Shown: positions 3,942 to 20,449 of the stretch, in pieces
Layout: the number at the start of each line of letters is the position of its first letter
Position numbering within the stretch: position 1 is the stretch's first letter
Source: Alcaligenaceae bacterium 429
GTDB taxonomy: Bacteria > Pseudomonadota > Gammaproteobacteria > Burkholderiales > Burkholderiaceae_B
NCBI GenBank assembly: GCA_004791645.1
Contig: SRSN01000011.1
Location: 1 to 33,975, forward strand
Direction: 5' to 3'
DNA length: 33,975 bases
Made by a program: the position numbers and the translations under genes
Notes under the pieces: generated by a model
Database searches by the model: none
Told to the model about the DNA's origin: nothing
The model's input: only the letters and a program-made list of their open reading frames with translations

Positions 3942-3952
3942 TTGTCTGACAA
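3942..3952. promoter_or_regulatory. Probable FadR-type GntR operator in the divergent promoter region
   Basis: TTGTCTGACAA is a perfect palindrome around a central base and fits the TNGTNNNACNA pattern typical of FadR-subfamily GntR operators. It lies between the leftward dehydratase operon and the rightward FAD-dehydrogenase operon. On the plus strand it overlaps a plausible -35 (TTGTCT, 3942-3947) spaced 17 bases from TTTAAA (3965-3970). A TATGAT also follows at 3953-3958. Binding here would control both operons. The regulator at 5567 is the obvious candidate (inference). Confidence 0.6.
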
Positions 3953-5544: not shown

Positions 5545-5566
5545 AACCCAAGGAGAAATGTCAGTC

Positions 5567-9291: not shown

Positions 9292-10023
9292 ATGATGCTT
9301 CAAGGAAAAGTGGTACTGGTGACGGCGGCGGCGCATGGTATAGGCCAAGCGTCGGCACTGGCGTTTCAGCGTGCAGGTGCAGTTGTACATGCCACAGATA
9401 TAGATCTGGTCGGGCTAAAGGCCTTACAAGCTTCGCAGCCTGCTATCACTATACATTGTATGGATGTACGAGATAGAGCGCAGATCAATACGGTGGTGAA
9501 ACAAGTAGGTGTGGTGGATGTCTTATTTAACTGTGCGGGTTATGTGCAAAACGGCACGGTATTAGAAGCCACCGAAGATGATTTTGATGTGGCTTTTGAT
9601 CTGAATGTGAAATCCATGGTGCGCATGGTACAGGCGGTATTGCCTGGCATGTTGGAGCGCGGTGATGGCTGCATCATTAACGTGGCTTCAGTAGTGAGCT
9701 CACTTAAAGGCGTGATTAATCGTTGCTCGTATGGTACCTCCAAGGCGGCGGTGATAGGGCTAACCAAGTCCATTGCTGCCGATTACGTTACCCAAGGTAT
9801 ACGATGCAATGCGATTTGTCCTGGAACGGTGCAAAGTCCATCGTTAGAGCAGCGTTTGGCGGCTACGGGTGACTATGATGCTGCGCTTAAGGCGTTTATT
9901 GCCCGCCAGCCTATGGGTAGATTAGGTACAGCAGAAGAAATCGCTGATTTGGTGGTGTATTTGGCCACTGCACGATACACCACAGGGTCGGTGTATGGCA
10001 TAGACGGAGGTATGTTGATCTGA
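9292..10023 (+). CDS. BDH2/DHRS6-like short-chain dehydrogenase, possible 2-keto-3-deoxy-sugar-acid 4-dehydrogenase
   Basis: A classical SDR of 243 residues (start ATG 9292 or 9295; AGGAG at 9281-9285). The cofactor motif is the unusual TAAAHGIG instead of TGxxxGIG, as in human BDH2 (DHRS6). Further blocks are also BDH2-like (LFNCAGYVQNGTVL, SSLKGVINR, KAAVIGLTKS, IRCNAICPGTV). The catalytic Ser-Tyr-Lys set is present (SVVSS, YGTSK). Bacterial relatives in this SDR group include 2-keto-3-deoxy-L-fuconate and -L-rhamnonate 4-dehydrogenases. That fits an IlvD/EDD dehydratase at the other end of the locus, which would supply a 2-keto-3-deoxy acid. The specific substrate is inferred. It is the last gene before a terminator. 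Confidence 0.87.
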   Translation: MMLQGKVVLVTAAAHGIGQASALAFQRAGAVVHATDIDLVGLKALQASQPAITIHCMDVRDRAQINTVVKQVGVVDVLFNCAGYVQNGTVLEATEDDFDVAFDLNVKSMVRMVQAVLPGMLERGDGCIINVASVVSSLKGVINRCSYGTSKAAVIGLTKSIAADYVTQGIRCNAICPGTVQSPSLEQRLAATGDYDAALKAFIARQPMGRLGTAEEIADLVVYLATARYTTGSVYGIDGGMLI

Positions 10024-10032
10024 CCACAGGTC

Positions 10033-10043
10033 TGGCCTGACCA
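10033..10043. promoter_or_regulatory. Auxiliary copy of the second GntR operator motif
   Basis: TGGCCTGACCA, identical to the core of the site at 10265-10275, lies 9 bases past the SDR stop and before its terminator. It lacks the third half-site seen at promoter copies. Additional partial half-sites lie just upstream (TGACCA at 10021-10026). It is 232 bases from the promoter-proximal copy and may be an auxiliary site. Confidence 0.5.
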
Positions 10044-10075
10044 GTGCATGAAATTTGAGTCCGTTAGTAAGGTTG

Positions 10076-10105
10076 CCCCACGACATCCGTTGTGGGGTTT
10101 TTTTT
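10076..10105 (+). terminator. Rho-independent terminator after the SDR gene
   Basis: CCCCACGAC pairs with GTTGTGGGG (one G-T wobble) around an ATCC loop and is followed by eight T (10098-10105). It closes the rightward operon that runs from the FAD dehydrogenase to the SDR. Confidence 0.93.
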
Positions 10106-10262
10106 ATGTATTGTCATCAAGATCGCAGTCAAATCTGCGGAGCTGATGCTTTTTTCGTTATTATTCTGGGTCAGTATGAGGAGAAGTGGCCATTAGTTAC
10201 TGATGGTTAACCCTAGGTTTGAGTTTTTTTTCTTGATTAATTGCCGTGGTATCAGGTAGCTT

Positions 10263-10283
10263 AGTGGCCTGACCACTAGGCCA
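10263..10283. promoter_or_regulatory. Operator at the promoter of the second GntR-TRAP-lyase operon
   Basis: AGTGGCCTGACCACT (10263-10277) is a near-perfect palindrome, followed in register by a third half-site (TAGGCCA, ending 10283). The 19-bp unit TGGCCTGACCACTAGGCCA recurs almost unchanged at 14893-14911 and 20343-20361. It lies about 20-40 bases upstream of the GntR start, just after a weak -35/-10 pair (TTGATT 10233-10238, TAGCTT 10257-10262). A bound repressor would block initiation. Confidence 0.7.
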
Positions 10284-10301
10284 GAATAATGTGGAACAAT
10301 C

Positions 10302-11027
10302 ATGAGCGTTTTTGAAGCCGTCGCAGTGCCGCGTTTGTATCGGGTTATCGCCGATCAAATTGCCTCAAAAATCCAGCAGGGCGAGTTTCCTGTAGGAAGT
10401 AGGCTGCCGTCTGAGCGCGAATTGGCAGAGCAGCTACAAGTTAGCCGTGCCTCCATCCGCGAAGCGTTGATTGCATTGGAATTGGAAGGGTATGTAGCGG
10501 TACGTGTGGGTACAGGGGTATTTGTACTGAGCGACCAGCAACGTCACCTGAATCAAAGCTCCGATGTGAGTCAACCAGCTCAAGTAGACAATGATTTTGG
10601 TCCCTTTGGTTTGTTGGAAACCCGTTTGTTGTTAGAGCCAGAAAGTGCCGAATTGGCCGCTGCGCTCGCCACGGAAGAACAACTGCAAGCCATTCAGGCT
10701 GCGTACGAAAGCATGGAAGGTAGTTCCACGCCCGCGCGCGAAGATAGAGCGTTTCACATGGCCATTGCCGCCGCCTGCGGTAACAGCGCCTTGGCGGCTA
10801 CGATCGCGCACGTATGGGAACTCGCGCTGCACAGCCCCATGTTCTCCCGTATGGAAAGACACTTTGTAGATGCCAATGTTTGGGAAAAAGCCCAGCTTGA
10901 ACATGGCCGTATTTTGGATGCCATCAAGTCTCGCGACAAGGTGCGAGCTCGATCTGCGATGCATGACCACTTGGTTAGCATCTTGGCGCGTTTACGCGTC
11001 GATTTTGGAAATGAAGGTATAGGTTAG
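10302..11027 (+). CDS. FadR-type (FCD) GntR transcriptional regulator, second locus
   Basis: A 241-residue GntR regulator. The winged helix-turn-helix occupies about residues 10-75 (GSRLPSERELAEQL, then VSRASIREALIALELEGYVAVR). The C-terminal FCD domain has the usual acidic/histidine ligand set (DRAFHMAIA, LEHGRILDAI, MHDHLVSIL). It is the first gene of an operon with dctP-dctQ-dctM and the CitE-like lyase, only 33 bases before dctP. The repeated TGGCCTGACCA-type motif just upstream of its start suggests autoregulation and control of the other units carrying the motif. It differs clearly in sequence from the regulator at 5567, matching the different operator. Confidence 0.92.
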   Translation: MSVFEAVAVPRLYRVIADQIASKIQQGEFPVGSRLPSERELAEQLQVSRASIREALIALELEGYVAVRVGTGVFVLSDQQRHLNQSSDVSQPAQVDNDFGPFGLLETRLLLEPESAELAAALATEEQLQAIQAAYESMEGSSTPAREDRAFHMAIAAACGNSALAATIAHVWELALHSPMFSRMERHFVDANVWEKAQLEHGRILDAIKSRDKVRARSAMHDHLVSILARLRVDFGNEGIG

Positions 11028-11060
11028 CCACCTTATTTAGGCTGTTCTTAGGAGAAGGGA

Positions 11061-12044
11061 ATGAGACTGAAGAAATCCTTATTCGGTTTAGTCATGACAG
11101 GCGCATCGCTGTTGGCGATGGCTCCAGCACACGCATTGGATATCAAACTGGGCCACGTGTTGGCACCTAACCATAGTTGGGGCGTGGCAGCAGACGGGTT
11201 TGCTCAAGAAGTTAAAGAGCGTACAGATGGTCGCGTTAATTTCGTGACTTACCCTAGCGGTCAGCTTGGTAATGAAAAAACCATGCTGGAAGGCCTGCAA
11301 ATTGGTAGCCAAGGCGCAGCGATTATTGGTAGCGGTTCCCTGCAACCTATTGATGCCAAATTCGGTATCGTAGAACTGCCTTACACATGGGCTAACGTTC
11401 AACAAGCGTACAACGCGTACGATGGTGAACTGGGTGAGCAATTGGCTGAATTGGCCGAAAAGCGCAACTTGGTTATCGTATCTTGGTGGGAAAACGGTTT
11501 CCGTCACATGACAAACAACCGCGGCCCTATCAATACACCAGCTGACATGGTTGGCCTGAAAACACGTGTGACTCCAGACAAAATGCGTTTGGATACCTTC
11601 ACTGCGTTAGGCGCAAACCCAGCTCCTTTGGCATTCGGTGAGTTGTACTCCGCTTTGCAGCAAAAAGTGTTTGATGCACAAGAGAACCCTCTGTCCATCA
11701 TCTACACATCGTCTTTCTTTGATGTGCAGCAGTACGCTTCGTTGACAGGCCACGTATGGGGTCCTGCCAGCTTGATTATCTCCAAACCTATCTGGAAGAA
11801 AATCTCTGACGAAGACAAAGCAATCATTCTGGAAGCTGCCGCTACATGGCGTGACAAACAGCGCGAGATGGTTCAAGAAGGCGAATTGGAGTTTGTTCGT
11901 CTGTTAGAAGAAAAAGGTATGAAAGTGAATACGGTTGACCCAGCTCCATTCATGGAAGCGGTACAACCAGTGTGGGCTGAGTACGAGAAAGTATTTGGTC
12001 AAGACCTGATGGATACTTTGCAGAAATACCGTCAGGAGAACTAA
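11061..12044 (+). CDS. dctP: TRAP transporter substrate-binding protein (DctP type), system 2
   Basis: A 327-residue periplasmic binding protein with a signal peptide (MRLKKSLFG start, cleavage likely after AHA at residue 25). Family motifs include GLKTRVTPDKMRLDTFTALG (the ligand-binding arginine region), GANPAPLAFGELYSALQ and DAQENP. It follows the GntR gene by 33 bases with an AGGAG site and is followed by dctQ after 3 bases, giving the order P-Q-M. It is clearly diverged from the DctP at 8233, so the two systems probably recognise different ligands. Codons are of the highly expressed type (CGT, GGT, GAA, AAC frequent), consistent with an abundant binding protein. Confidence 0.94.
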   Translation: MRLKKSLFGLVMTGASLLAMAPAHALDIKLGHVLAPNHSWGVAADGFAQEVKERTDGRVNFVTYPSGQLGNEKTMLEGLQIGSQGAAIIGSGSLQPIDAKFGIVELPYTWANVQQAYNAYDGELGEQLAELAEKRNLVIVSWWENGFRHMTNNRGPINTPADMVGLKTRVTPDKMRLDTFTALGANPAPLAFGELYSALQQKVFDAQENPLSIIYTSSFFDVQQYASLTGHVWGPASLIISKPIWKKISDEDKAIILEAAATWRDKQREMVQEGELEFVRLLEEKGMKVNTVDPAPFMEAVQPVWAEYEKVFGQDLMDTLQKYRQEN

Positions 12045-12047
12045 ATA

Positions 12048-12533
12048 ATGGTTATACGGCGACTAATCGCCGGTTTGTCCCACGCCTGCCTGTACTTGGC
12101 AGCGCTTGGGGCAGCCCTAATGGCGGTGTTGATCAGTTATGTGGTGGTGCTGCGTTTCGGCTGGCATCAGACCCCACATTGGGCAGAAGAATTGCCTCGC
12201 TTCATCTTGGTATGGAGTGCTTTCTTAGGCGGCGTGGCATGTACTTACCGTCGTTCTCATTTAACAGCAGGTTTGCTGTCTACCATCCTGCCTGACGGTC
12301 CATTGCAAAATGCCGTACGTAAGGTTGGGGATGTTGCCATGATTTTTGGTCTGGCCGTATTGGGTTACGCCGGCTGGGAACTGAGTGAATTGACAATGGG
12401 ACAACCTTTGCCCGCCATTGGCGTGGACGCAGGGTATGTCTACTTAGCATTACCCGTGGCATGTGCTGCCATGGTGATCGTTCAGCTGGGACAATTGTTC
12501 GGGCTGGTTTCGGATGAAGCGAAGGAGAGCTGA
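12048..12533 (+). CDS. dctQ: TRAP transporter small permease subunit (DctQ type), system 2
   Basis: A 161-residue membrane protein with four hydrophobic segments and the DctQ signature around EELPRFILVWSAFLGGVACTYR. It begins 3 bases after dctP and ends 2 bases before dctM. The ribosome-binding site lies inside the end of dctP (AGGAG just before its stop), indicating tight translational coupling in the operon. Confidence 0.93.
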   Translation: MVIRRLIAGLSHACLYLAALGAALMAVLISYVVVLRFGWHQTPHWAEELPRFILVWSAFLGGVACTYRRSHLTAGLLSTILPDGPLQNAVRKVGDVAMIFGLAVLGYAGWELSELTMGQPLPAIGVDAGYVYLALPVACAAMVIVQLGQLFGLVSDEAKES

Positions 12534-12535
12534 TC

Positions 12536-13819
12536 ATGTCGTTAGGTGCTTTAGCGCTTCTTGGTATTTTTGCTGTAACCCTATTAATCGACGTGCCAGT
12601 GGCCTTCGGCCTGGTACTGGCTTCCGTAGCCTACTTGCTGTTGTTTGATGCCGCACCTACGATGGTTGCCGCCCAACAGTTTGTTTCCGGTTTAGATAGT
12701 TTTACATTGCTCGCCATCCCGCTGTTTGTGTTGGCGGCGCAGTTAATGAACAGTGCTGGTCTGACACAACGTATCGTACGTTTGTGTGCAGCCATCGTGG
12801 GCGATGTTCCCGGTGGTCTGGCGATCGTAGCTGTTCTGGCTTGTATGATGTTTGGTGCATTGTCCGGTTCGGGCGTGGCTGACGTAGTGGCTATTGGTAG
12901 CTTGATGCTGCCAACGATGGCGCAGCGTGGCTATGATCGCGGCTTTAGTGCAGCGCTGATTGGGTGTGCTGGGGCGAGCTCCACCATTATTCCTCCTAGC
13001 ATTGTGCTGATTGTTTACGGCACGATTACCGATACCTCTGTTGGCAAGCTGTTCATGGCCGGTATTGTTCCAGGCGTGTTGCTGGGCGTGTCCTTGATCG
13101 TGGTAGCGGTTTGGATGTCTCGTAAACATGGCTGGAGTGGTGGTCAACCTTTCAATGCTAAAGAACTGCGTGCATCCTTCATTGATGCGTTGCCTGCATT
13201 GATGGTGCCTGTGCTGATTATTGGTGGTATTAGGTTCGGTATTTTTACCGCAACTGAAGCTGCGTCTAGCGCGATTGTGTATGCCCTGTTGATTGGTGCA
13301 TTCTGGTACCGTTCTTTGTCCCTGAAAAAACTGTGGAACGACCTGAAAGTTACAGCTGAAATCAGTGCATCTATTCTGTTGATTATCGGTGCAGCAGCGT
13401 TGTTCGCATGGATTCTGATTGCAGAGCAGTTGCCACACAGCTTGGCGCAATTCTTGGTGAACTTCACGGATAGCAAATACGGCGTATTGCTGTTGATCAT
13501 GGCTGTACTGCTGGTGTTGGGTACTTTCATGGAAGCTATCGCGCTGATCATTATCGTGGCTCCTGTTGTGATGCCTGCGATTCACCACTTCGGTATTGAT
13601 CCTGTGCACTTTGGTATTTTGTTGGTGGTTAACTTGGCGATTGGTGCTAACACACCACCGTTGGGTGTGGACTTGCTGGCAGCGTGTCGAATCGGTGGTA
13701 TTCGTATGGTGCAAACCCTACGTCCGCTGTCGTGGATGGTGCTGGCCATGTTGTCCGTCTTGATGCTGTTGATGTTCGTGCCATCCCTAGTGATGTTCTT
13801 GCCGAACACCGTAGCGTAG
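12536..13819 (+). CDS. dctM: TRAP transporter large permease subunit (DctM type), system 2
   Basis: A 427-residue polytopic membrane protein of the DctM family. Typical blocks are SGLDSFTLLAIPLFVLAAQLMN (split over two helices), GALSGSGVADVVAIG, IIPPSIVLIVYG and NTPPLGVDLLAACRI near the C terminus. It follows dctQ with a 2-base gap and an AAGGAG ribosome-binding site inside dctQ, and is followed 10 bases later by the CitE-like gene. The AGGAG site of that gene overlaps the dctM stop, so the lyase is expressed together with the transporter and probably acts on its substrate or a product. Confidence 0.94.
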   Translation: MSLGALALLGIFAVTLLIDVPVAFGLVLASVAYLLLFDAAPTMVAAQQFVSGLDSFTLLAIPLFVLAAQLMNSAGLTQRIVRLCAAIVGDVPGGLAIVAVLACMMFGALSGSGVADVVAIGSLMLPTMAQRGYDRGFSAALIGCAGASSTIIPPSIVLIVYGTITDTSVGKLFMAGIVPGVLLGVSLIVVAVWMSRKHGWSGGQPFNAKELRASFIDALPALMVPVLIIGGIRFGIFTATEAASSAIVYALLIGAFWYRSLSLKKLWNDLKVTAEISASILLIIGAAALFAWILIAEQLPHSLAQFLVNFTDSKYGVLLLIMAVLLVLGTFMEAIALIIIVAPVVMPAIHHFGIDPVHFGILLVVNLAIGANTPPLGVDLLAACRIGGIRMVQTLRPLSWMVLAMLSVLMLLMFVPSLVMFLPNTVA

Positions 13820-13829
13820 GAGACCAAGC

Positions 13830-14738
13830 ATGACACAAGCGTTCTCATTGTTACGTCGTCCGCCAGCATTGCGTCGTTCCTGGCAGTTTGTGCCAGGAAT
13901 GGATCAAGCTGCCCACCAAGCTGCTGTAGAAGGTATGGCTGATGTGGTGGTGGCGGATCTAGAAGAGTTCACTCGTCCAGAAGACCGACCTGTAGCACGC
14001 CAACGTCTGCATGACCTGTTCGCCGCTTGCAAAGCGGCGGGCAAGGTTGCCGCAGTGCGTATTAATAAGTTGGAAGAAGACGGTCACGACGATTTGGCAG
14101 GCATTATGGCTGCGGCACCGCACGCTATCTTGTTGCCTCACTCCGAGCATGCTGCACAGATCGCTGCATTGGACGCAGCCATTACTGAGTGGGAGGCTAA
14201 GTGTGGTCTGACAGCAGGCCAAACCGAGATCATTCCTACGTTGGAATCTGCGTTGGCATTGGTGAATTGCACGGCAGTGCTGAAAGCCTCATCACGTGTA
14301 TCGGCTTGCTTGTTGGCAGCAGAAGACCTTAGCGCTGACTTGTGGTTGGAACGTAGTGCTACTGGCACGGCGCTCTATGCCATTCGTCAACGCTTTGTGA
14401 TCGAATGTCGTGCGGCTGGTGTGGTCGCTATTGATTGCCCCTTCAACTTCAAAAATGAAGACGCATTCAAAGCTGATCTGGCGTGGGCTCGCAGCGTAGG
14501 TTTGCAAGCTAAATGTGTAGTGAATGTGCGTCAAACACCCGTGGTGCACGAGTACTTCTCTCCCTCGGCTGCAGATGTAGCAGCGGCCGAAGCGTTGCTG
14601 GCTAAAGCTGCCAGCCAAGATGCTTCCACACCGGATAATCAATGGGTAGATGGTCCGGTAGCGGCAACGGCAAGACGTGTAGTAATGCGCGCTGCGTTGT
14701 TTGCAGGCTATGAGCAGGATGTACGTGGCGGAGCCTAA
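13830..14738 (+). CDS. HpcH/HpaI aldolase/CitE-like lyase family protein
   Basis: A 302-residue protein of the CitE/HpcH superfamily of TIM-barrel C-C lyases, which cleave citryl-, malyl- or citramalyl-type substrates or perform aldol reactions with pyruvate or acetyl units. Visible are RRSWQFVPG (CoA/substrate arginine region, R15-R16), DLEE (43-46, usually DLED), RIN (77-79), and the Mg ligands E139 (in IPTLES) and D166 (in AAEDLSADLW). The lysine of the usual LLPK motif is histidine here (LLPH, H104), so it may not be a standard CoA-ester lyase. It is the last gene of the GntR-TRAP operon. Substrate unknown. Confidence 0.82.
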   Translation: MTQAFSLLRRPPALRRSWQFVPGMDQAAHQAAVEGMADVVVADLEEFTRPEDRPVARQRLHDLFAACKAAGKVAAVRINKLEEDGHDDLAGIMAAAPHAILLPHSEHAAQIAALDAAITEWEAKCGLTAGQTEIIPTLESALALVNCTAVLKASSRVSACLLAAEDLSADLWLERSATGTALYAIRQRFVIECRAAGVVAIDCPFNFKNEDAFKADLAWARSVGLQAKCVVNVRQTPVVHEYFSPSAADVAAAEALLAKAASQDASTPDNQWVDGPVAATARRVVMRAALFAGYEQDVRGGA

Positions 14739-14739
14739 C

Positions 14740-14750
14740 TGGCCTGACCA
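14740..14750. promoter_or_regulatory. Auxiliary operator copy directly after the lyase stop codon
   Basis: TGGCCTGACCA occurs within ACTGGCCTGACCACT (14738-14752), starting at the final base of the lyase stop codon. The core is identical to the copies at 10033 and 10265. No third half-site follows. It is 153 bases upstream of the promoter copy for the ThDP enzyme. Confidence 0.5.
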
Positions 14751-14767
14751 CTCGTAAGTAGTACGAA

Positions 14768-14802
14768 GCCCCTGTATGCGTTAAACATAACCGTGCAGGG
14801 GC
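14768..14802 (+). terminator. Possible weak terminator after the CitE-like gene
   Basis: GCCCCTG (14768-14774) can pair with CAGGGGC (14796-14802), but the loop is long and no T run follows. It is placed where the GntR-TRAP-lyase operon should end. Partial read-through into the next gene is possible. Confidence 0.35.
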
Positions 14803-14872
14803 GCTAACGCCTCAGTCCTTGCTGGCTTTAGCGTAATTAACAGGTTTTTTTATACGTTGTAGCAAACAAACC

Positions 14873-14911
14873 TGCTATGATTGTAATTAAGGTGGTCTGG
14901 CCACTAGGCCA
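14873..14911 (+). promoter_or_regulatory. Extended -10 promoter overlapped downstream by the GntR operator
   Basis: TGCTATGAT (14873-14881) is a good extended -10 element, placing the transcription start near 14888. The element TGGTCTGGCCACTAGGCCA (14893-14911) follows immediately, in the position expected for repression of initiation or escape. It has the same three-half-site layout as the copies at 10265-10283 and 20343-20361. Confidence 0.65.
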
Positions 14912-14978
14912 CTTGTAAGAATATGCCATGGCGTACCGGTAGAGCAGCGGTAGCCATCATTGTTTATAGGGAATGGAA

Positions 14979-16634
14979 ATGAGCAATAACCGTCACGCTG
15001 GTAAAGCCATCGCAGAGAGCTTGGCCCTACATGGAGTTGATCGTGTGTTTGTAGTGCCGGGTGAAAGCTACCTGGCCGTGCTGGATGGTTTGTACGACAC
15101 AAACATCCAAAGCGTGGTGTGCCGTCATGAAGCCGCTGCAGCCTACATGGCTGATGCGTACGGCAAATTCACTGGCAAACCTGGTGTTGCCATGGTGACT
15201 CGTGGCCCTGGTGCCGCTCAAGCTTTCACTGGCATTCACACAGCATGGCAAGATGGCGTGCCTATGGTGTTGTTCGTAGGTTTGATCCCTGTAGCAGACC
15301 GTGAGCGCGAGTCGTTCCAAGAGTTTGATCCTAAAGCATGGTTTGGTTCACAGTGCAAACGTGTGTTTGTATTGGATAGCGCCGAGCGTGCTTCTGAAGT
15401 TGTTGCTGAAGCATTCTTCGCCGCTATGGAAGGTCGTCCAGGCCCAGTAGTGGTAGGCTTGCCTGAAGACATCATCCGTGAAGAATTTACGCGTGAGTTG
15501 CAACCTGTGTTGCCAGTGGCACAAGGTGCTGTAGGCCAAGACGAATTGGCAGCGCTGACAGCAGCGTTGGCATCCGCTAAAAAACCAATGTTGTTCGTAG
15601 GTGGTCAGAACTGGGATAGCGAAGCATCCCGTCAATTGACTCACTTTGCTGAGCAAAACCGTATTCCTGTGCTGCACGATTGGCGTGCTGCTGATCGCAT
15701 TCCTTTTAACTCACCTGCGCATGCTGGTTACTTGGGTTATGGCCGTGATGACGCAACTGCTGCGTTGTATGCTGAATCCGACGTGCTGGTTGCTGTAGGT
15801 GTGGTACCAGGCGACGTGTCTACTGATGGCTACACATTGCGTCAAGATACCTCCGCTATTACGTACCAAGTGAATCTGGACACCAGCTTGCGTGGTCGCA
15901 GCGGTGCAATGACTCACCAAATCTTGGCAAACCCTAAAGTGTTTGCTCGTACTGTAGAGACACTGGAGTTGGCCGGTGCAGAGCAGCGTCAAGCATGGTT
16001 TGACCGTTGTCACGCTGTTCAGCGCGAATACTCCCGTTTCCCAACAGAGTTGCCACGTACTGCACCTGGTACAGCACATATGACAGCGCTGATGGAATCC
16101 ATCGTGAAGCGTTTGCCTGACGATGCGGTATACAGCTTTGGTGCAGGTAACCACTGCATTTGGGCACAACGCTATTTGCCTACTAACGTATTCCCAAGCC
16201 AATTGAGTGCCCGTAACGGTGCAATGGGTTACAGCGTTCCAGCCGGTATCGTGGCGTCGTTGCAATCACCTGAGCGTGTGTCGGTAGTGATCGCTGGTGA
16301 CGGTGAGTTCTTTATGAACGAAGCTGAGCTGTCCACCGCAGTGACTTACGGCGCACCAATCTTGGTAGTCATGATGGACAACCAGCAGTACGGCACAATC
16401 CGCCTGCACCAAGAGCAGCATTACCCAGGCCGTGTGTCTGGTACACAGTTGCAGAACCCTAATTGTGAATTGTTGGCACAAGCCTTTGGTGCATACGGTG
16501 CGCGTATTACCGATGACTCTCAAATTGAAGCAGCTGTAGAAGCCGCATTCAAAGCAATTCTGGAAGAAAAACGACCTGCAATTCTGCAGATCGTGACGGA
16601 TCAGGCTTTGGCATTGCCAGAGTCTGTAGCATAA
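14979..16634 (+). CDS. ThDP-dependent decarboxylase/acetolactate synthase-like enzyme
   Basis: A 551-residue enzyme of the acetolactate synthase/2-oxo acid decarboxylase superfamily. The order is an N-terminal PYR domain (catalytic glutamate in CRHEAAAAYMADAYG), a middle Rossmann-like domain, and a C-terminal PP domain with the ThDP/Mg motif GDGEFFMNEAE running to MMDNQQYG. The usual closing NN pair of the ThDP motif is DN. A glutamine is present in ESFQEFD, as in ALS-type enzymes. The catalytic Glu argues against glyoxylate carboligase, which has Val there. ATG 14979 is chosen over 14973 because AGGGA at 14968-14972 is better spaced. It has its own promoter and operator and ends at a strong terminator. 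Likely role: decarboxylation or carboligation of a 2-oxo acid, with the aldehyde passed to the nearby aldehyde dehydrogenases (inference). Confidence 0.85.
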   Translation: MSNNRHAGKAIAESLALHGVDRVFVVPGESYLAVLDGLYDTNIQSVVCRHEAAAAYMADAYGKFTGKPGVAMVTRGPGAAQAFTGIHTAWQDGVPMVLFVGLIPVADRERESFQEFDPKAWFGSQCKRVFVLDSAERASEVVAEAFFAAMEGRPGPVVVGLPEDIIREEFTRELQPVLPVAQGAVGQDELAALTAALASAKKPMLFVGGQNWDSEASRQLTHFAEQNRIPVLHDWRAADRIPFNSPAHAGYLGYGRDDATAALYAESDVLVAVGVVPGDVSTDGYTLRQDTSAITYQVNLDTSLRGRSGAMTHQILANPKVFARTVETLELAGAEQRQAWFDRCHAVQREYSRFPTELPRTAPGTAHMTALMESIVKRLPDDAVYSFGAGNHCIWAQRYLPTNVFPSQLSARNGAMGYSVPAGIVASLQSPERVSVVIAGDGEFFMNEAELSTAVTYGAPILVVMMDNQQYGTIRLHQEQHYPGRVSGTQLQNPNCELLAQAFGAYGARITDDSQIEAAVEAAFKAILEEKRPAILQIVTDQALALPESVA

Positions 16635-16706
16635 GGTGCAGCCACTCGCCGAAGAGCGATGAACCTTGCCACACTACGGCTAAAAGCTGTTGAGCACCTA
16701 GGAACG

Positions 16707-16739
16707 GCCCGAATCTGTGAAAGCAGGTTCGGGCTTTTT
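16707..16739 (+). terminator. Rho-independent terminator after the ThDP enzyme gene
   Basis: GCCCGAATCTG pairs with CAGGTTCGGGC over 11 positions with one wobble, followed by five T. It lies 73 bases past the stop codon and ends the single-gene transcription unit. Confidence 0.92.
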
Positions 16740-16973
16740 CTTTGTGCGGGAAAGGAGGGCGATGCGGCTTTATGCCTCGTTGCATAGTTATCTCTTTGTG
16801 GGCGTAGATAATGAGCGGGGCTTTGTTTCTTGGTAGTGTGGCTACGGCAAGTACAGCATCTTCTCAGACTGGTGAGGCGCTGCTATGACGATAAATGGGA
16901 ACGCTGGGTGGGTGGTTTATGCCAGCACCAATCAAAACGTGCTGTAGAGGCGCAGAATAGGCCTTGGAGGGGT
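16740..16973. other. Gene-free stretch between two convergent units
   Basis: About 380 bases separate the ThDP enzyme stop from the end of the convergent aldehyde dehydrogenase gene. Besides the terminator at 16707-16739 and the inverted repeat at 16974-17007, I see only a 25-codon open frame from ATG 16811 to 16888 without a good ribosome-binding site, and a small TATGC/GCATA repeat (16771-16786). No RNA gene is recognisable. Confidence 0.5.
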
Positions 16974-17007
16974 ATGCTTTCGTGCAAGGTCTCTCGCACG
17001 AAAGCAT
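16974..17007. repeat. Perfect 12-bp inverted repeat next to the aldehyde dehydrogenase stop
   Basis: ATGCTTTCGTGC (16974-16985) and GCACGAAAGCAT (16996-17007) are perfect complements around a 10-base loop. It lies 9 bases past the stop codon of the leftward aldehyde dehydrogenase gene. No T run follows on either strand, so it is not a standard intrinsic terminator, though it could stabilise the mRNA 3' end. Confidence 0.75.
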
Positions 17008-17016
17008 GGGTACTAC

Positions 17017-18513
17017 TTACACAGTCAGATCAATCCAGGTGGATTTCAAGCTGGTGTATTTGTCTATAGCGTGTATGGACTTGTCACGACCAAAGCCGGA
17101 CTGTTTCACACCGCCAAATGGCATAGCAATATTGCCATTGAAGTAGCAGTTCACCCAGACCAAGCCAGCTTCCAACTCGCGGCCCATGCGGTGCGCGCGA
17201 CTGATGTTGCTGGTCCACAGGCCGGCACCTAAGCCGAACTCGTGATCGTTAGCCATGTGCAGAACTTCTTCTTCGGTGTCGAATACCGTTACCGCCAACA
17301 CCGGCCCGAAGATTTCTTCACGAATGATGCGTACATCTTGTGAAGGCACTTCAAAAATGGTGGGCTCAATGTAGTAGCCGCCAGTTTCGGTGCGAACTTG
17401 CTGGCCGCCAGTGAGCAGCGTGGCTTGTTCGCAGCCAGAGGCAATGTAGCTCATCACTGTGCCCATGTGCTGCTGTGTCACCATAGCGCCCATTGCAGTT
17501 TTGGGATCCAAAGGATTACCCGGCTGCATGGTTTTGGCGTGAGCAATCAGCTTCTCTTTGAAGCTTTCGTAGATGCCACGTTGTACGTACAGGCGTGAAC
17601 CTGCAATACATACTTCGCCTTGGTTGTTGAAAATGCCAACGGCAGCCATCAATGCAGCTTTGTCCAAATCAGGGCAGTCATCAAACACGATGTGTGGAGA
17701 TTTACCACCGCACTCCAACCAGATTTGTTTCAGGTTGGACTGGCCGGAGTACTGCATAAAGCGTTTACCGGTCATGGTGGAACCGGTAAAGGTCAGGCAA
17801 TCTACGTCTGGGTGCAAGCCCAATGCTTGACCCGCACCGGGGCCTGTGCCGGGCACAATGTTCAACACGCCTGGAGGCAAACCTGCTTCCAGCGCCAACT
17901 CACCCAAACGAATAGCGGTCAGCGGTGTGGCGTCAGCGGGTTTCAAGATAACGCTGTTACCCGCTGCTAGTGCAGGAGCCACTTTCCACGATGACATCAT
18001 CAGTGGGAAGTTCCAAGGCACCACAGCAGCTACTACACCCAAGGGGTGGCGTGTGATGGTGGCCAGAGCGTTGTTATCGGTAGGAGCGATTTCATCGTAT
18101 TGTTTGTCGATGAGTTCGCCGTACCACGCGTAAGCAGTGGCGGATTCTGGAATATCAAATTGCGTGGTTTCACTGATGGGTTTACCCATGTTCAGCGTTT
18201 CCAACAGCGCGATATCGTCCAGGTTTTCACGAATCAGTTGCGCCAAGCGTTGCAGAATTTCTTTGCGCTTTACGCGAGGCATATTGCGCCAAACGCCAGA
18301 TTTAAAGGCGCGGCGAGCAGATTGAACGGCTACATCAATATCCGCTTCGTTGCAGGAGGCAACTTGGGCCAAAACTTGACCGCTTGCAGGGTTAACAATG
18401 TCCAGAACGTCGCCATTGCCTTGGTAGGCTTTACCATCAATGATGGCTTGGCTGCGGAACGACAACTGGGCTGCCCGTTGTTCCCAGTCCTGCAGGGTGA
18501 GGGGTGTAGTCAT
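17017..18513 (-). CDS. NAD(P)-dependent aldehyde dehydrogenase, PuuC/KauB-like
   Basis: A 498-residue aldehyde dehydrogenase. The cofactor motif PWNFPL, the general-base glutamate in WLECGGKSP, the catalytic cysteine in NNQGEVCIAGSRLYV and the C-terminal PFGGVKQSGFGRDKS are all present. Across its length it resembles E. coli PuuC (gamma-glutamyl-aminobutyraldehyde dehydrogenase) and the Pseudomonas KauB type, which oxidise omega-amino or omega-guanidino aldehydes. It is the third gene of the leftward cupin-M20-ALDH unit, but a terminator-like hairpin lies between it and the M20 gene. GGAAG about 8 bases upstream serves the ATG. The natural aldehyde could be the product of the ThDP decarboxylase (inference). 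Confidence 0.9.
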   Translation of the reverse strand: MTTPLTLQDWEQRAAQLSFRSQAIIDGKAYQGNGDVLDIVNPASGQVLAQVASCNEADIDVAVQSARRAFKSGVWRNMPRVKRKEILQRLAQLIRENLDDIALLETLNMGKPISETTQFDIPESATAYAWYGELIDKQYDEIAPTDNNALATITRHPLGVVAAVVPWNFPLMMSSWKVAPALAAGNSVILKPADATPLTAIRLGELALEAGLPPGVLNIVPGTGPGAGQALGLHPDVDCLTFTGSTMTGKRFMQYSGQSNLKQIWLECGGKSPHIVFDDCPDLDKAALMAAVGIFNNQGEVCIAGSRLYVQRGIYESFKEKLIAHAKTMQPGNPLDPKTAMGAMVTQQHMGTVMSYIASGCEQATLLTGGQQVRTETGGYYIEPTIFEVPSQDVRIIREEIFGPVLAVTVFDTEEEVLHMANDHEFGLGAGLWTSNISRAHRMGRELEAGLVWVNCYFNGNIAMPFGGVKQSGFGRDKSIHAIDKYTSLKSTWIDLTV

Positions 18514-18530
18514 GTATAACTTCCGTAGAG

Positions 18531-18557
18531 CAAAAAGGGCTGCCGTGTGGGCAGCCC
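18531..18557 (-). terminator. Intercistronic terminator-like hairpin before the aldehyde dehydrogenase gene
   Basis: On the minus strand GGGCTGCC pairs with GGCAGCCC (8 perfect GC-rich pairs, 5-base loop; plus-strand arms 18537-18544 and 18550-18557) and is followed by TTTTTG. It lies in the 50-base gap between the M20 hydrolase stop and the aldehyde dehydrogenase start, so it probably lowers read-through into the latter. Confidence 0.8.
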
Positions 18558-18563
18558 GAATAA

Positions 18564-19820
18564 TTAGCAGACTTTAGCCTGCTCCAGCATTGCGCCCAGC
18601 AACACGTTGGCACCGATGGCTACGTGTTCAGGTTTAGCGTCTTCGATTTCGTTGTGGCTGATCCCGTCTTTGCAAGGGATGAAGATCATGGATGTGGGGT
18701 GTTTGCTTGCAACGAACACCGCATCGTGGCCAGCGCCAGTCACGATATCTTGGTGAGAGTAACCACGAGCCTCAGCTTGTGCACGCACGCTGTTGATCAG
18801 GTGAGGAGCAAATGGGGTTGGTGGGAACTGTTGAATATCAGTGATAGAGATATCGGTGGTGTAGCCTGTGTGTTCGCCTTGGGCAACGTCTGCGCACAGT
18901 TTGCGGAAACGTGCTTCCATTTCATCCAGCAACGCGCTGTCTTCGTGGCGCAGGTCAACACTGAAGCTCACTTTGCCAGGGATTACGTTACGGGAAGATG
19001 GGTATACGTCCAACACACCAACCGTACCGCGGCCTTGAGGGGCGTATTCACGGGCGATATCAATCACACCTTGAACAATGTAAGACGCAGAGTACAACGC
19101 ATCTTTACGCAATTCCATTGGAGTAGGGCCAGCGTGCGCTTCCATGCCTGTTACCGCTACGTCGTACCAACGTAGACCCAACGAGCCTGTGACCACACCG
19201 ATCACATTGTCGTTGGCTTCCAATACAGGGCCTTGCTCAATGTGAGCTTCGATGTAGCTGCCAAAGGCGTGGCCTGGTACGGGGTAGTCACCGTCGTAAC
19301 CGATGTTTTTCAATTCTTCGCGTACTGATTTGCCATCCAGATCCACGGCGTCCAGCGCAGTTTCAATAGGGAATACTTGGCAGAATGCTCCGGAACCCAT
19401 CATCACAGGCACAAAGCGTGTGCCTTCTTCGTTAGTCCAGATGATCAACTCCATTGGAGCTTCTGTCTCGATGTTGTTCTCGTGCAAGGTGCGCATGACT
19501 TCCAAACCAGCCATTACGCCAAAGCAACCATCGAACCTGCCGCCTGTGGGCTGTGTGTCGATGTGGCTACCTGTGGCAACGGGGGGGAGGCTTGGGTTAC
19601 GGCCAGGGCGGCGACCAAAGATGTTACCCACCTGGTCGACGGTAATGGTCATCCCCGCCTCACGCATCCAGCCGCAAACCATGTCGCGTGCCTGGCCGTC
19701 TAGTGCCGTCAACGCCAAACGGCAGTTACCGCCTTTGGGTGTGGCACCAATTTTGGCCAGATCCATCAACGATTGCCAGAGGCGTTCGCCGTTGATGTTT
19801 AGGGAGGTGATGTCGGTCAT
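18564..19820 (-). CDS. M20-family Zn-dependent amidohydrolase (N-carbamoyl-L-amino acid hydrolase/allantoate amidohydrolase type)
   Basis: A 418-residue enzyme of the carbamoylase branch of peptidase family M20, which includes N-carbamoyl-L-amino acid hydrolase, beta-ureidopropionase and allantoate amidohydrolase. The two-metal site is intact: H86 (GSHIDT), D97 (GGRFDG), E131-E132 (NEEGTRF), H193 (EAHIEQG) and a C-terminal histidine in GISHNE. Such enzymes remove a carbamoyl (ureido) group, giving the amine, CO2 and ammonia. It follows the cupin gene by 34 bases with an AAGGA site. Hydantoinase and allantoinase partners are absent, so a ureido acid formed inside the cell or imported is the more likely substrate (inference). 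Confidence 0.87.
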   Translation of the reverse strand: MTDITSLNINGERLWQSLMDLAKIGATPKGGNCRLALTALDGQARDMVCGWMREAGMTITVDQVGNIFGRRPGRNPSLPPVATGSHIDTQPTGGRFDGCFGVMAGLEVMRTLHENNIETEAPMELIIWTNEEGTRFVPVMMGSGAFCQVFPIETALDAVDLDGKSVREELKNIGYDGDYPVPGHAFGSYIEAHIEQGPVLEANDNVIGVVTGSLGLRWYDVAVTGMEAHAGPTPMELRKDALYSASYIVQGVIDIAREYAPQGRGTVGVLDVYPSSRNVIPGKVSFSVDLRHEDSALLDEMEARFRKLCADVAQGEHTGYTTDISITDIQQFPPTPFAPHLINSVRAQAEARGYSHQDIVTGAGHDAVFVASKHPTSMIFIPCKDGISHNEIEDAKPEHVAIGANVLLGAMLEQAKVC

Positions 19821-19854
19821 GAGATTTTCCTTGCTGCAAAAAAAACGATGATTC

Positions 19855-20151
19855 CTAGCGTTTGAACTCGATCTCTACGAATACAAATGGCTCGGGACCA
19901 GGATTAATAACGTTGTGTTGCACACCGGCTTGCCGGCAATAACTTTGACCCTGAGTAAGAGCATTGCTATGACGAGTACCGTCAGGAAGTTCCAACTGCA
20001 GAGTGCCGGTAGTCATTGGTACTACTACATAGTCCATGTCGTGGCCGTGCCAGCCGGTTTCGGCTCCGGGCTCGAAGTACCATTCGGTGACACGAGTGAA
20101 ATCGTTGTCAATTTGTACGGTAGGGCGGGCTGCTGGTCGTTGCTGGTTCAT
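19855..20151 (-). CDS. Small single-domain cupin protein
   Basis: A 98-residue protein that is essentially one cupin beta-barrel. Metal-binding histidines are seen at H35 and H37 (WHGHDMDYV) and H79 (QHNVINPG). The glutamate that usually follows the HxH pair is not present; D40 or Y41 lies there. It is the first gene of the leftward unit with an AAAGGA site, 34 bases before the M20 hydrolase. Such small cupins are isomerases, epimerases, dioxygenases or sensors, and the sequence does not decide. It is much shorter than the two-cupin ureidoglycine aminohydrolase, so it is not a standard AllE. Confidence 0.75.
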   Translation of the reverse strand: MNQQRPAARPTVQIDNDFTRVTEWYFEPGAETGWHGHDMDYVVVPMTTGTLQLELPDGTRHSNALTQGQSYCRQAGVQHNVINPGPEPFVFVEIEFKR

Positions 20152-20449
20152 AGACTGTCCTTTGGTTGGTAATCACTTTCTACATCATGGTCATGGTGCT
20201 GAAGAAAAAAGCTTTTTGCATTCAGTCATGGGGCCATTTAGGGTGGTATGATTTTTATAACCTTCAACCATCACCGGTAGAAAGCGTTTCTATTCATAGG
20301 CAACGCATTCCCTGGTGTGGGTGTTTAGGTTTAGTATTCAGGTGGTCAGGCCACAAGACCAGTTTAATGGAAAATTACCAAAAAAGGTGCATGGTGTTTT
20401 CCATAGGTGCTGCCTGTCCCCAAAAGCGTATGTGTGATGAGACAGAAAA
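20152..20449. promoter_or_regulatory. Divergent regulatory region between the cupin operon and the MocR gene
   Basis: This region of about 300 bases has no gene. It holds the 19-bp GntR element (20343-20361) plus the ribosome-binding site of the cupin gene (20158-20164, minus strand). I cannot pick a convincing promoter on either strand. The element lies 89-107 bases before the MocR start and about 190 bases before the cupin start. Confidence 0.55.
20343..20361. promoter_or_regulatory. Third promoter-type GntR operator copy
   Basis: TGGTCAGGCCACAAGACCA repeats the three-half-site design of 10265-10283 and 14893-14911: the palindromic core (TGGTCAGGCCA, the reverse complement of TGGCCTGACCA) plus a third half-site ending in ACCA. 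This links the cupin-M20-ALDH unit and/or the MocR gene to the second GntR regulator (inference). Confidence 0.65.

Follow-up and report, generated by a model that had tools for sequence, protein, structure and literature searches.

Operators of the FadR subfamily of GntR-type regulators have been described as palindromes of the form TKGTNNNACMA, with an extra adjacent half-site 7−12 nt from the palindrome center that is called weaker in the relevant passages of the comparative study (Suvorova et al. 2015, PMC4494728). Two further regulators serve as points of reference, as far as the passages on their operons and operators go: DhdR of Achromobacter denitrificans, which represses its own operon and is released by a hydroxy acid (PMC8651671; PDB 9jpj−9jpl), and the FCD-type NanR of Escherichia coli, whose operator consists of three GGTATA repeats (PMC8012715). 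This report deals with a 33,975-nt contig of Alcaligenaceae bacterium 429 (SRSN01000011.1), here called the window, in which five short palindromes lie around the gene of a GntR/FCD transcriptional regulator (10302−11027, forward strand) and a group of catabolic genes. These sites are rare outside genes, are conserved, and co-occur with the 10302 regulator across the bacterial family. With good confidence, we read them as the putative operators of an autoregulated FCD repressor that would govern TRAP transporter and CitE-like genes, a thiamine diphosphate (ThDP)-dependent enzyme, and a MocR-type regulator located beside M20 amidohydrolase, aldehyde dehydrogenase (ALDH), and succinate-semialdehyde dehydrogenase (SSADH) genes.

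The locus resembles the FadR-subfamily systems, as presented in the passages of PMC4494728, in that the regulator joins a GntR helix−turn−helix (HTH) to a helical C-terminal domain, three nucleotides separate the inner pairs of the half-sites, and an additional half-site is present, here 11 nt from the palindrome center. None of the five sites strictly matches TKGTNNNACMA, because one half of each reads TGGCC instead of TGGTC; the spacing and the other half agree with the consensus. Unlike the extra boxes called weaker there, the third half-site is strong here and perfect in 72 of 95 homologues; the three-half-site architecture is already known, and only this strength is notable. The operator of DhdR, GTTATCAGATAAC, is unrelated to the sites at this locus, and the two proteins share 28−34% identity in structural alignments. 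The likeness to NanR, judged by the part of its report that covers the operator, consists in three repeated elements, although these form here one inverted pair and one further half-site. ExuR and UxuR are the best-scoring named NCBIfam regulators for the 10302 protein (149.3 and 135.1 bits), but these scores fall far under the curated equivalog cut-offs of 396 and 442. Searches of the literature by site strings and by the gene combination returned, among the matches listed for the strings, no description of such an operator, and the gene combination led to a MocR study; judged solely by these searches, the regulon appears to be undescribed.

The palindromes and the proposed 19-bp operators

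The core palindrome TGGCCTGACCA occurs exactly at 10033, 10265, and 14740 on the forward strand, and its reverse complement, TGGTCAGGCCA, at 20343; the fifth site, at 14893, is TGGTCTGGCCA, one mismatch away from TGGCCTGACCA. A sequence-only reading of this DNA had placed the five palindromes correctly, all of them outside the open reading frames (ORFs) taken as genes, and had described near variants on the other strand; this holds for 20343, the 14893 site being a one-mismatch variant and not a reverse complement. Only 8.2% of the region 224−24737 is intergenic, yet five of five sites lie outside genes. When up to one mismatch is allowed, the window contains nine matches to TGGYCWGRCCA, compared with 2.46 on average and at most 7 in 100 shuffles.

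For genome-wide motif counts, the reversed pattern in the same genome or genomes was used as the background control. In the genome from which the window comes, a draft of 3.54 Mb in 391 contigs that is 89.1% complete, TGGYCWGRCCA occurs exactly 12 times (control, 7), five of them within this 34-kb contig; the binomial chance that at least five of the 12 would fall here is 6e-8. The remaining seven are all inside ORFs. The near relative Paenalcaligenes suwonensis 191B (G008) also has 12 sites (control, 2), of which four belong to this locus and the other eight all lie inside ORFs. The motif is not, then, a common feature of unrelated intergenic DNA in either genome.

The five sites, which the sequence-only reading had treated alike, are all real, but they are not equivalent. 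Three of them are 19-bp elements composed of three half-sites, TGGYCWGRCCA-CWA-GRCCA, a structure absent from that reading, and are the sole exact 19-mers in their genome. The primary operator precedes the GntR/FCD gene (10265−10283, +) and reads TGGCCTGACCA CTA GGCCA; that before the ThDP-enzyme gene (14893−14911, +) reads TGGTCTGGCCA CTA GGCCA and has two substitutions in P. suwonensis; and that in the divergent cupin/MocR region (20343−20361, +) reads TGGTCAGGCCA CAA GACCA, is kept in P. suwonensis, and forms an island of conservation in a more diverged congener, G010. The other two palindromes lack the third half-site and look auxiliary. One (10033−10043, +) starts 10 nt past the stop codon of a short-chain dehydrogenase/reductase (SDR) gene and 232 bp upstream of the primary operator (230 bp in P. 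suwonensis); the other (14740−14750, +) starts 2 nt past the CitE stop codon and 153 bp upstream of the 14893 operator, and has one mismatch in P. suwonensis.

Conservation with the regulator

A survey of 268 family genomes from 43 genera with the 19-mer pattern TGGYCWGRCCACNNGRCCA gave 74 exact matches in 57 genomes, compared with three for the reversed pattern, and these matches span seven of the genera. Directly upstream of an orthologue of the 10302 gene lie 69 of the 74; of the other five, three precede the MocR gene (in the window's own genome, P. suwonensis, and G010), one precedes the ThDP gene (own genome), and one is inside a 690-aa ORF (G191:C11). Orthologues, defined by E ≤ 1e-60 with at most 10 first-look candidates scored per genome, so that paralogues may be missed, were found in 67 of the 268 genomes. 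The exact 19-mer is present in 56 of these 67 genomes, versus one of the 201 without an orthologue; the exception (G034) carries a homologue that is more distant.

Beyond the orthologues, 100 distinct homologous genes were collected with a tblastn cut-off of 1e-40, which omitted two homologues of 39−41% identity (L057 and L059), and 450 bp upstream of each gene plus 15 nt into it were scanned, one gene having only 320 bp upstream. All of the 95 homologues that reach 46% identity or more carry the palindrome, with at most one mismatch, within 450 bp upstream, and a control on the bodies of the same 95 genes gave five matches in 42,750 bp. The site nearest to the gene is TGGCCTGACCA in 88 of the 95. 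A genome from another family of the order (G081) also has the 11-bp palindrome, upstream of a homologue of 46% identity. The sequence-only reading had named, as grounds for its own refutation, a motif widespread in unrelated intergenic DNA or lacking in relatives. On both points the outcome supports its interpretation: away from this locus the exact copies in the two genomes all lie inside ORFs, and the sites are kept in P. suwonensis, in G010, and upstream of 10302 homologues across genera.

In the analysis of paired sites, the “primary” site was picked partly via its third half-site, and the unbiased count of the latter therefore uses the site nearest to the start codon. Counted this way, GRCCA at offset +14 matches four or five of its five positions in 85 of the 95 genes, with the 72 perfect cases among them, and the next-best offset for GRCCA reaches 30. 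At least two sites within 450 bp are found in 50 of the 95. The distance to the second exact site is 100−101 bp in 42 sequences, 230−232 bp in the window and P. suwonensis, and 56−106 bp in three others; in G010 a one-mismatch site lies 95 bp upstream. We read the paired upstream sites as probable auxiliary operators, which might act by looping. A constant helical phasing of the pairs was considered and dropped, as the spacing varies among these classes.

Many genomes of one genus (g4, G101−G141) have two paralogues of the regulator, with the site roughly 100−190 bp from the start in one and about 27−44 bp in the other, and M20 or ThDP genes often follow the paralogue with the shorter distance.

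The regulator at 10302

The assignment of the 10302 protein to the FadR subfamily is borne out by its Pfam domains, both above their cut-offs: an N-terminal GntR winged HTH (PF00392, 70.4 bits, cut-off 27) and a C-terminal FCD domain (PF07729, 86.1 bits, cut-off 24.3). An alignment of 24 sequences shows a strongly conserved HTH and no variation at H152, H201, or H223, with very little at D148; these four residues we take to be the likely metal/ligand residues of the FCD domain, its Asp-His-His-His set. The predicted structure (mean predicted local distance difference test score, pLDDT, 82.7; predicted template modeling score, pTM, 0.57) matches FCD regulator folds. First by rank in the fold comparison is the inducer domain of DhdR (9jpk, Z 20.3, root-mean-square deviation 1.9, 131 aligned residues, 30% identity), which comes second to 6az6 when the sequence is compared with solved structures. 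Because the protein has both domains and the palindrome also lies upstream of its homologues, it is very probably the binder of the palindromes.

Candidate target genes and pathway

Downstream of the regulator gene, on the same strand, are the genes of a TRAP transporter (11061−13819), namely DctP (11061−12044), DctQ (12048−12533), and DctM (12536−13819), followed by a CitE-like lyase of the HpcH/HpaI family (13830−14738) and a ThDP-dependent enzyme of the PRK08199 subfamily (14973−16634; 558 bits, cut-off 539). The opposite strand carries, at 17017−20151, the divergent genes of a cupin (19855−20151), an M20 amidohydrolase (18564−19820), and a PuuC-like ALDH (17017−18513). On the forward strand again are the MocR-type regulator (20450−21934) and, after it, an SSADH (22085−23581; TIGR01780, 738 bits, cut-off 646). 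For DctP, CitE, and the ThDP enzyme, sequence matches in the PDB identify the families and no substrate. Many TRAP binding proteins fit the DctP fold at similar Z values, among them the sugar-acid binder 7bbr (Z 40.0) and the SiaP sialic-acid binders.

The 20343 site lies in the divergent region with the cupin-M20-ALDH genes on one side and the MocR gene on the other. In G010 the cupin/MocR region has largely diverged, with GTGGTCAGGCCACAAG-CCAGTTTAATG kept except for one base; the site again precedes the MocR gene (70% identity), and the divergent genes are those of a dipeptide-type ABC transporter, an M20 protein (in pieces), and an ALDH. The MocR gene is the most likely target of 20343; whether the site also governs the divergent cupin-M20-ALDH operon is less sure. 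As a separate observation, the G010 M20 gene appears in three overlapping tblastn pieces at about 5165−6400 of its locus (L136, G010:C5), a pattern that points to a frameshift or to errors in the sequence.

In other genera, the M20, ALDH, ThDP, CitE, and TRAP genes adjoin the regulator gene in varying sets, and all of them do so in G042 (L051); the ORF lists at GC-rich loci of relatives contain antisense ORFs and were used mainly for choosing genes. The earlier proposal that the sites tie together three gene groups on different strands and promoters thus gains support from gene neighborhoods in other genera, rather than from expression.

As to the substrate, there is a lead toward a γ-aminobutyrate (GABA)- or polyamine-linked compound. 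The Bordetella GabR regulons include, in the passages that list them, gabT paralogues, a dipeptide ABC transporter, a COG2334 kinase, and argE (PMC5320631), and similar genes surround the GntR and MocR genes of G010. There, the regulator gene and a gabT-type transaminase gene (TIGR00700, 620 bits, cut-off 507) form a divergent pair, and further downstream come a PRK06148-like gene pair and another dipeptide ABC transporter; in the window, the MocR gene stands before the SSADH gene. These genes, along with the PuuC-like ALDH and the M20 gene, recall the make-up of those regulons, and the lead comes from this likeness. Against it, the MocR protein fails the cut-off of the GabR model (323.6 bits, cut-off 600) and passes that of PdxR (426.8 bits, cut-off 320); its score with the rhizopine MocR model, 493.2 bits, is higher than with PdxR but below that model’s own cut-off of 650. 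A GntR/FCD control such as that proposed here is not described in the passages of PMC5320631 on the MocR/GabR regulons.

Proposed mechanism

We propose that the 10302 protein is a GntR repressor of the FadR/FCD subfamily, the dimer of which would recognize TGGYCWGRCCA, with the third half-site GRCCA, 3 bp further on, strengthening the operators. Its binding sites would lie immediately past the −10 boxes of three transcription units: the regulator gene together with the TRAP and CitE genes that follow it, the gene of the ThDP enzyme, and that of the MocR regulator. The 10302 protein would thereby keep down its own expression as well as that of the catabolic genes and of a second regulator, until a small carboxylate binds in the FCD domain as inducer and releases the repressor. 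The sites at 10033 and 14740 may be auxiliary, acting upstream of the first two promoters through cooperative binding or looping. An autoregulated repressor is the most likely form of control because the operators are near putative promoters, the likely FCD ligand pocket is conserved, and the relative DhdR works in this way.

The promoters themselves are putative. Boxes read by eye are a −10 TAGCTT (10257−10262, +) with a −35 TTGATT at 10233−10238 and an 18-nt spacer, an extended −10 TGCTATGAT (14873−14881, +), and a −10 TAGTAT of the MocR gene (20332−20337, +), after which the 10265, 14893, and 20343 operators start 2, 11, and 5 nt away, respectively. This geometry is tentative, since the boxes were chosen by eye and consensus promoter scans of all three operator regions returned no sigma-70 match.

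The value of the proposal is that an uncharacterized regulator gains a clear candidate operator and a bounded, testable list of targets, and that a CitE-like lyase, a ThDP enzyme, an M20 hydrolase, and a MocR regulator are joined in one candidate pathway across several genera of the family. A bolder version, which we think rather doubtful, would have a two-tier cascade in the Paenalcaligenes clade, an FCD sensor placed over a MocR sensor: the MocR and ThDP genes would have been captured by the regulator, each asymmetric three-half-site operator would load more than one dimer, the paired sites 95−232 bp away would loop, and an undescribed pathway would join a TRAP-imported hydroxy acid to GABA-type catabolism.

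Alternative readings and points against

Several observations weigh against the proposed repressor and its regulon. Eleven of the 67 genomes with an orthologue have no exact 19-mer, and eight of the 11 genomes of the genus lack both the regulator and the exact 19-mer. Distant homologues, at 39−42% identity, are mixed: of five at 41−42%, four have no site upstream and one has TGGTCTAACCA, and the two at 39−41% have TGGTAAGGCCA and TGGTCAGACCA (L057 and L059). The homologue and site counts include many close relatives and are not counts of independent events. TGGYC-type half-sites matching four or five of five positions also occur at +13 in 50 of the 95 homologues, and at +12 and −8 in 30, in part through overlap with GRCCA at +14. 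Weaker targets may exist among the 19-mers with two mismatches, of which the own genome has nine further examples, one overlapping the 10265 site, versus three for the reversed pattern (six versus three with a second pattern); we do not count them as targets. The empty promoter scans belong here too. Finally, in genomes beyond this genus the exact 19-mers are almost confined to the regulator’s own promoters, and none was seen at a second promoter; a multi-promoter regulon would be a feature of this small clade, and three related genomes supply the basis for the wider regulon.

This last point lends itself to the reading that only 10265 matters, through autoregulation, with 14893 and 20343 being fortuitous and no multi-promoter regulon existing, since in other genera exact sites occur only at promoters of the regulator or its paralogue, save for the copy inside an ORF. 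We regard it as improbable: 14893 and 20343 have the full 19-bp architecture, the genome has no exact copies besides these two and 10265, and 20343 persists as a conserved island in the diverged G010. Less probable still is that the five palindromes serve a second GntR-family regulator, encoded in the window at 5558−6310. Its protein aligns with the FCD-type models NanR and LldR along the greater part of its sequence, with scores below their cut-offs, and its gene is 4 kb away in a cluster ending at the SDR gene beside 10033; yet that cluster has in its divergent promoter, at 3942, a perfect palindrome of its own, TTGTCTGACAA, which is kept in P. suwonensis and unique in the own genome. The TGGCCTGACCA site, for its part, tracks 10302 orthologues across genera, and of 16 stretches compared, only that of P. 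suwonensis had a separate match to the 5558 protein. Binding of the five sites by the 5558 regulator was rejected on these grounds.

The palindromes might also be a dispersed repeat or a terminator-related element, given that two of the five closely follow stop codons and that 10033 and 10265 have a terminator hairpin between them. This we consider extremely improbable, and it was likewise rejected: among the 12 exact copies of the own genome and the 12 of P. suwonensis there is no other intergenic one, those away from the locus being all inside ORFs, the sites track one regulator family, and the hairpin is a separate sequence.

Neighboring features

The intrinsic terminator-like hairpin is at 10075−10098 (+), between the auxiliary and the primary site. 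A weak partial palindrome, TGATCTGACCA, at 10016−10026 (+) overlaps the SDR stop codon and has two mismatches in P. suwonensis. The region 224−10023 is a sugar-acid catabolic cluster comprising an IlvD-type dehydratase, a GarR-like reductase, a D-erythronate dehydrogenase (above its NCBIfam cut-off), a GlcD-like oxidase, a GntR regulator, a TRAP transporter, and an SDR. TTGTCTGACAA, at 3942−3952, occupies the promoter region from which the D-erythronate-dehydrogenase and GlcD-like genes diverge and is likely the operator of the 5558−6310 regulator.

One of the two-mismatch 19-mers of the own genome, TGGTCTTACCACTTTACCA, is an intergenic element with three half-sites that is identical at G000:C335:16081−16099 (L185, own genome) and G008:C2:75789−75807 (L186). 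It lies upstream of an ORF of 501−508 aa, the N-terminus of which looks by eye like that of a glycolate-oxidase-type FAD protein, and it may be a site of another FCD regulator, perhaps a GlcC-like one.

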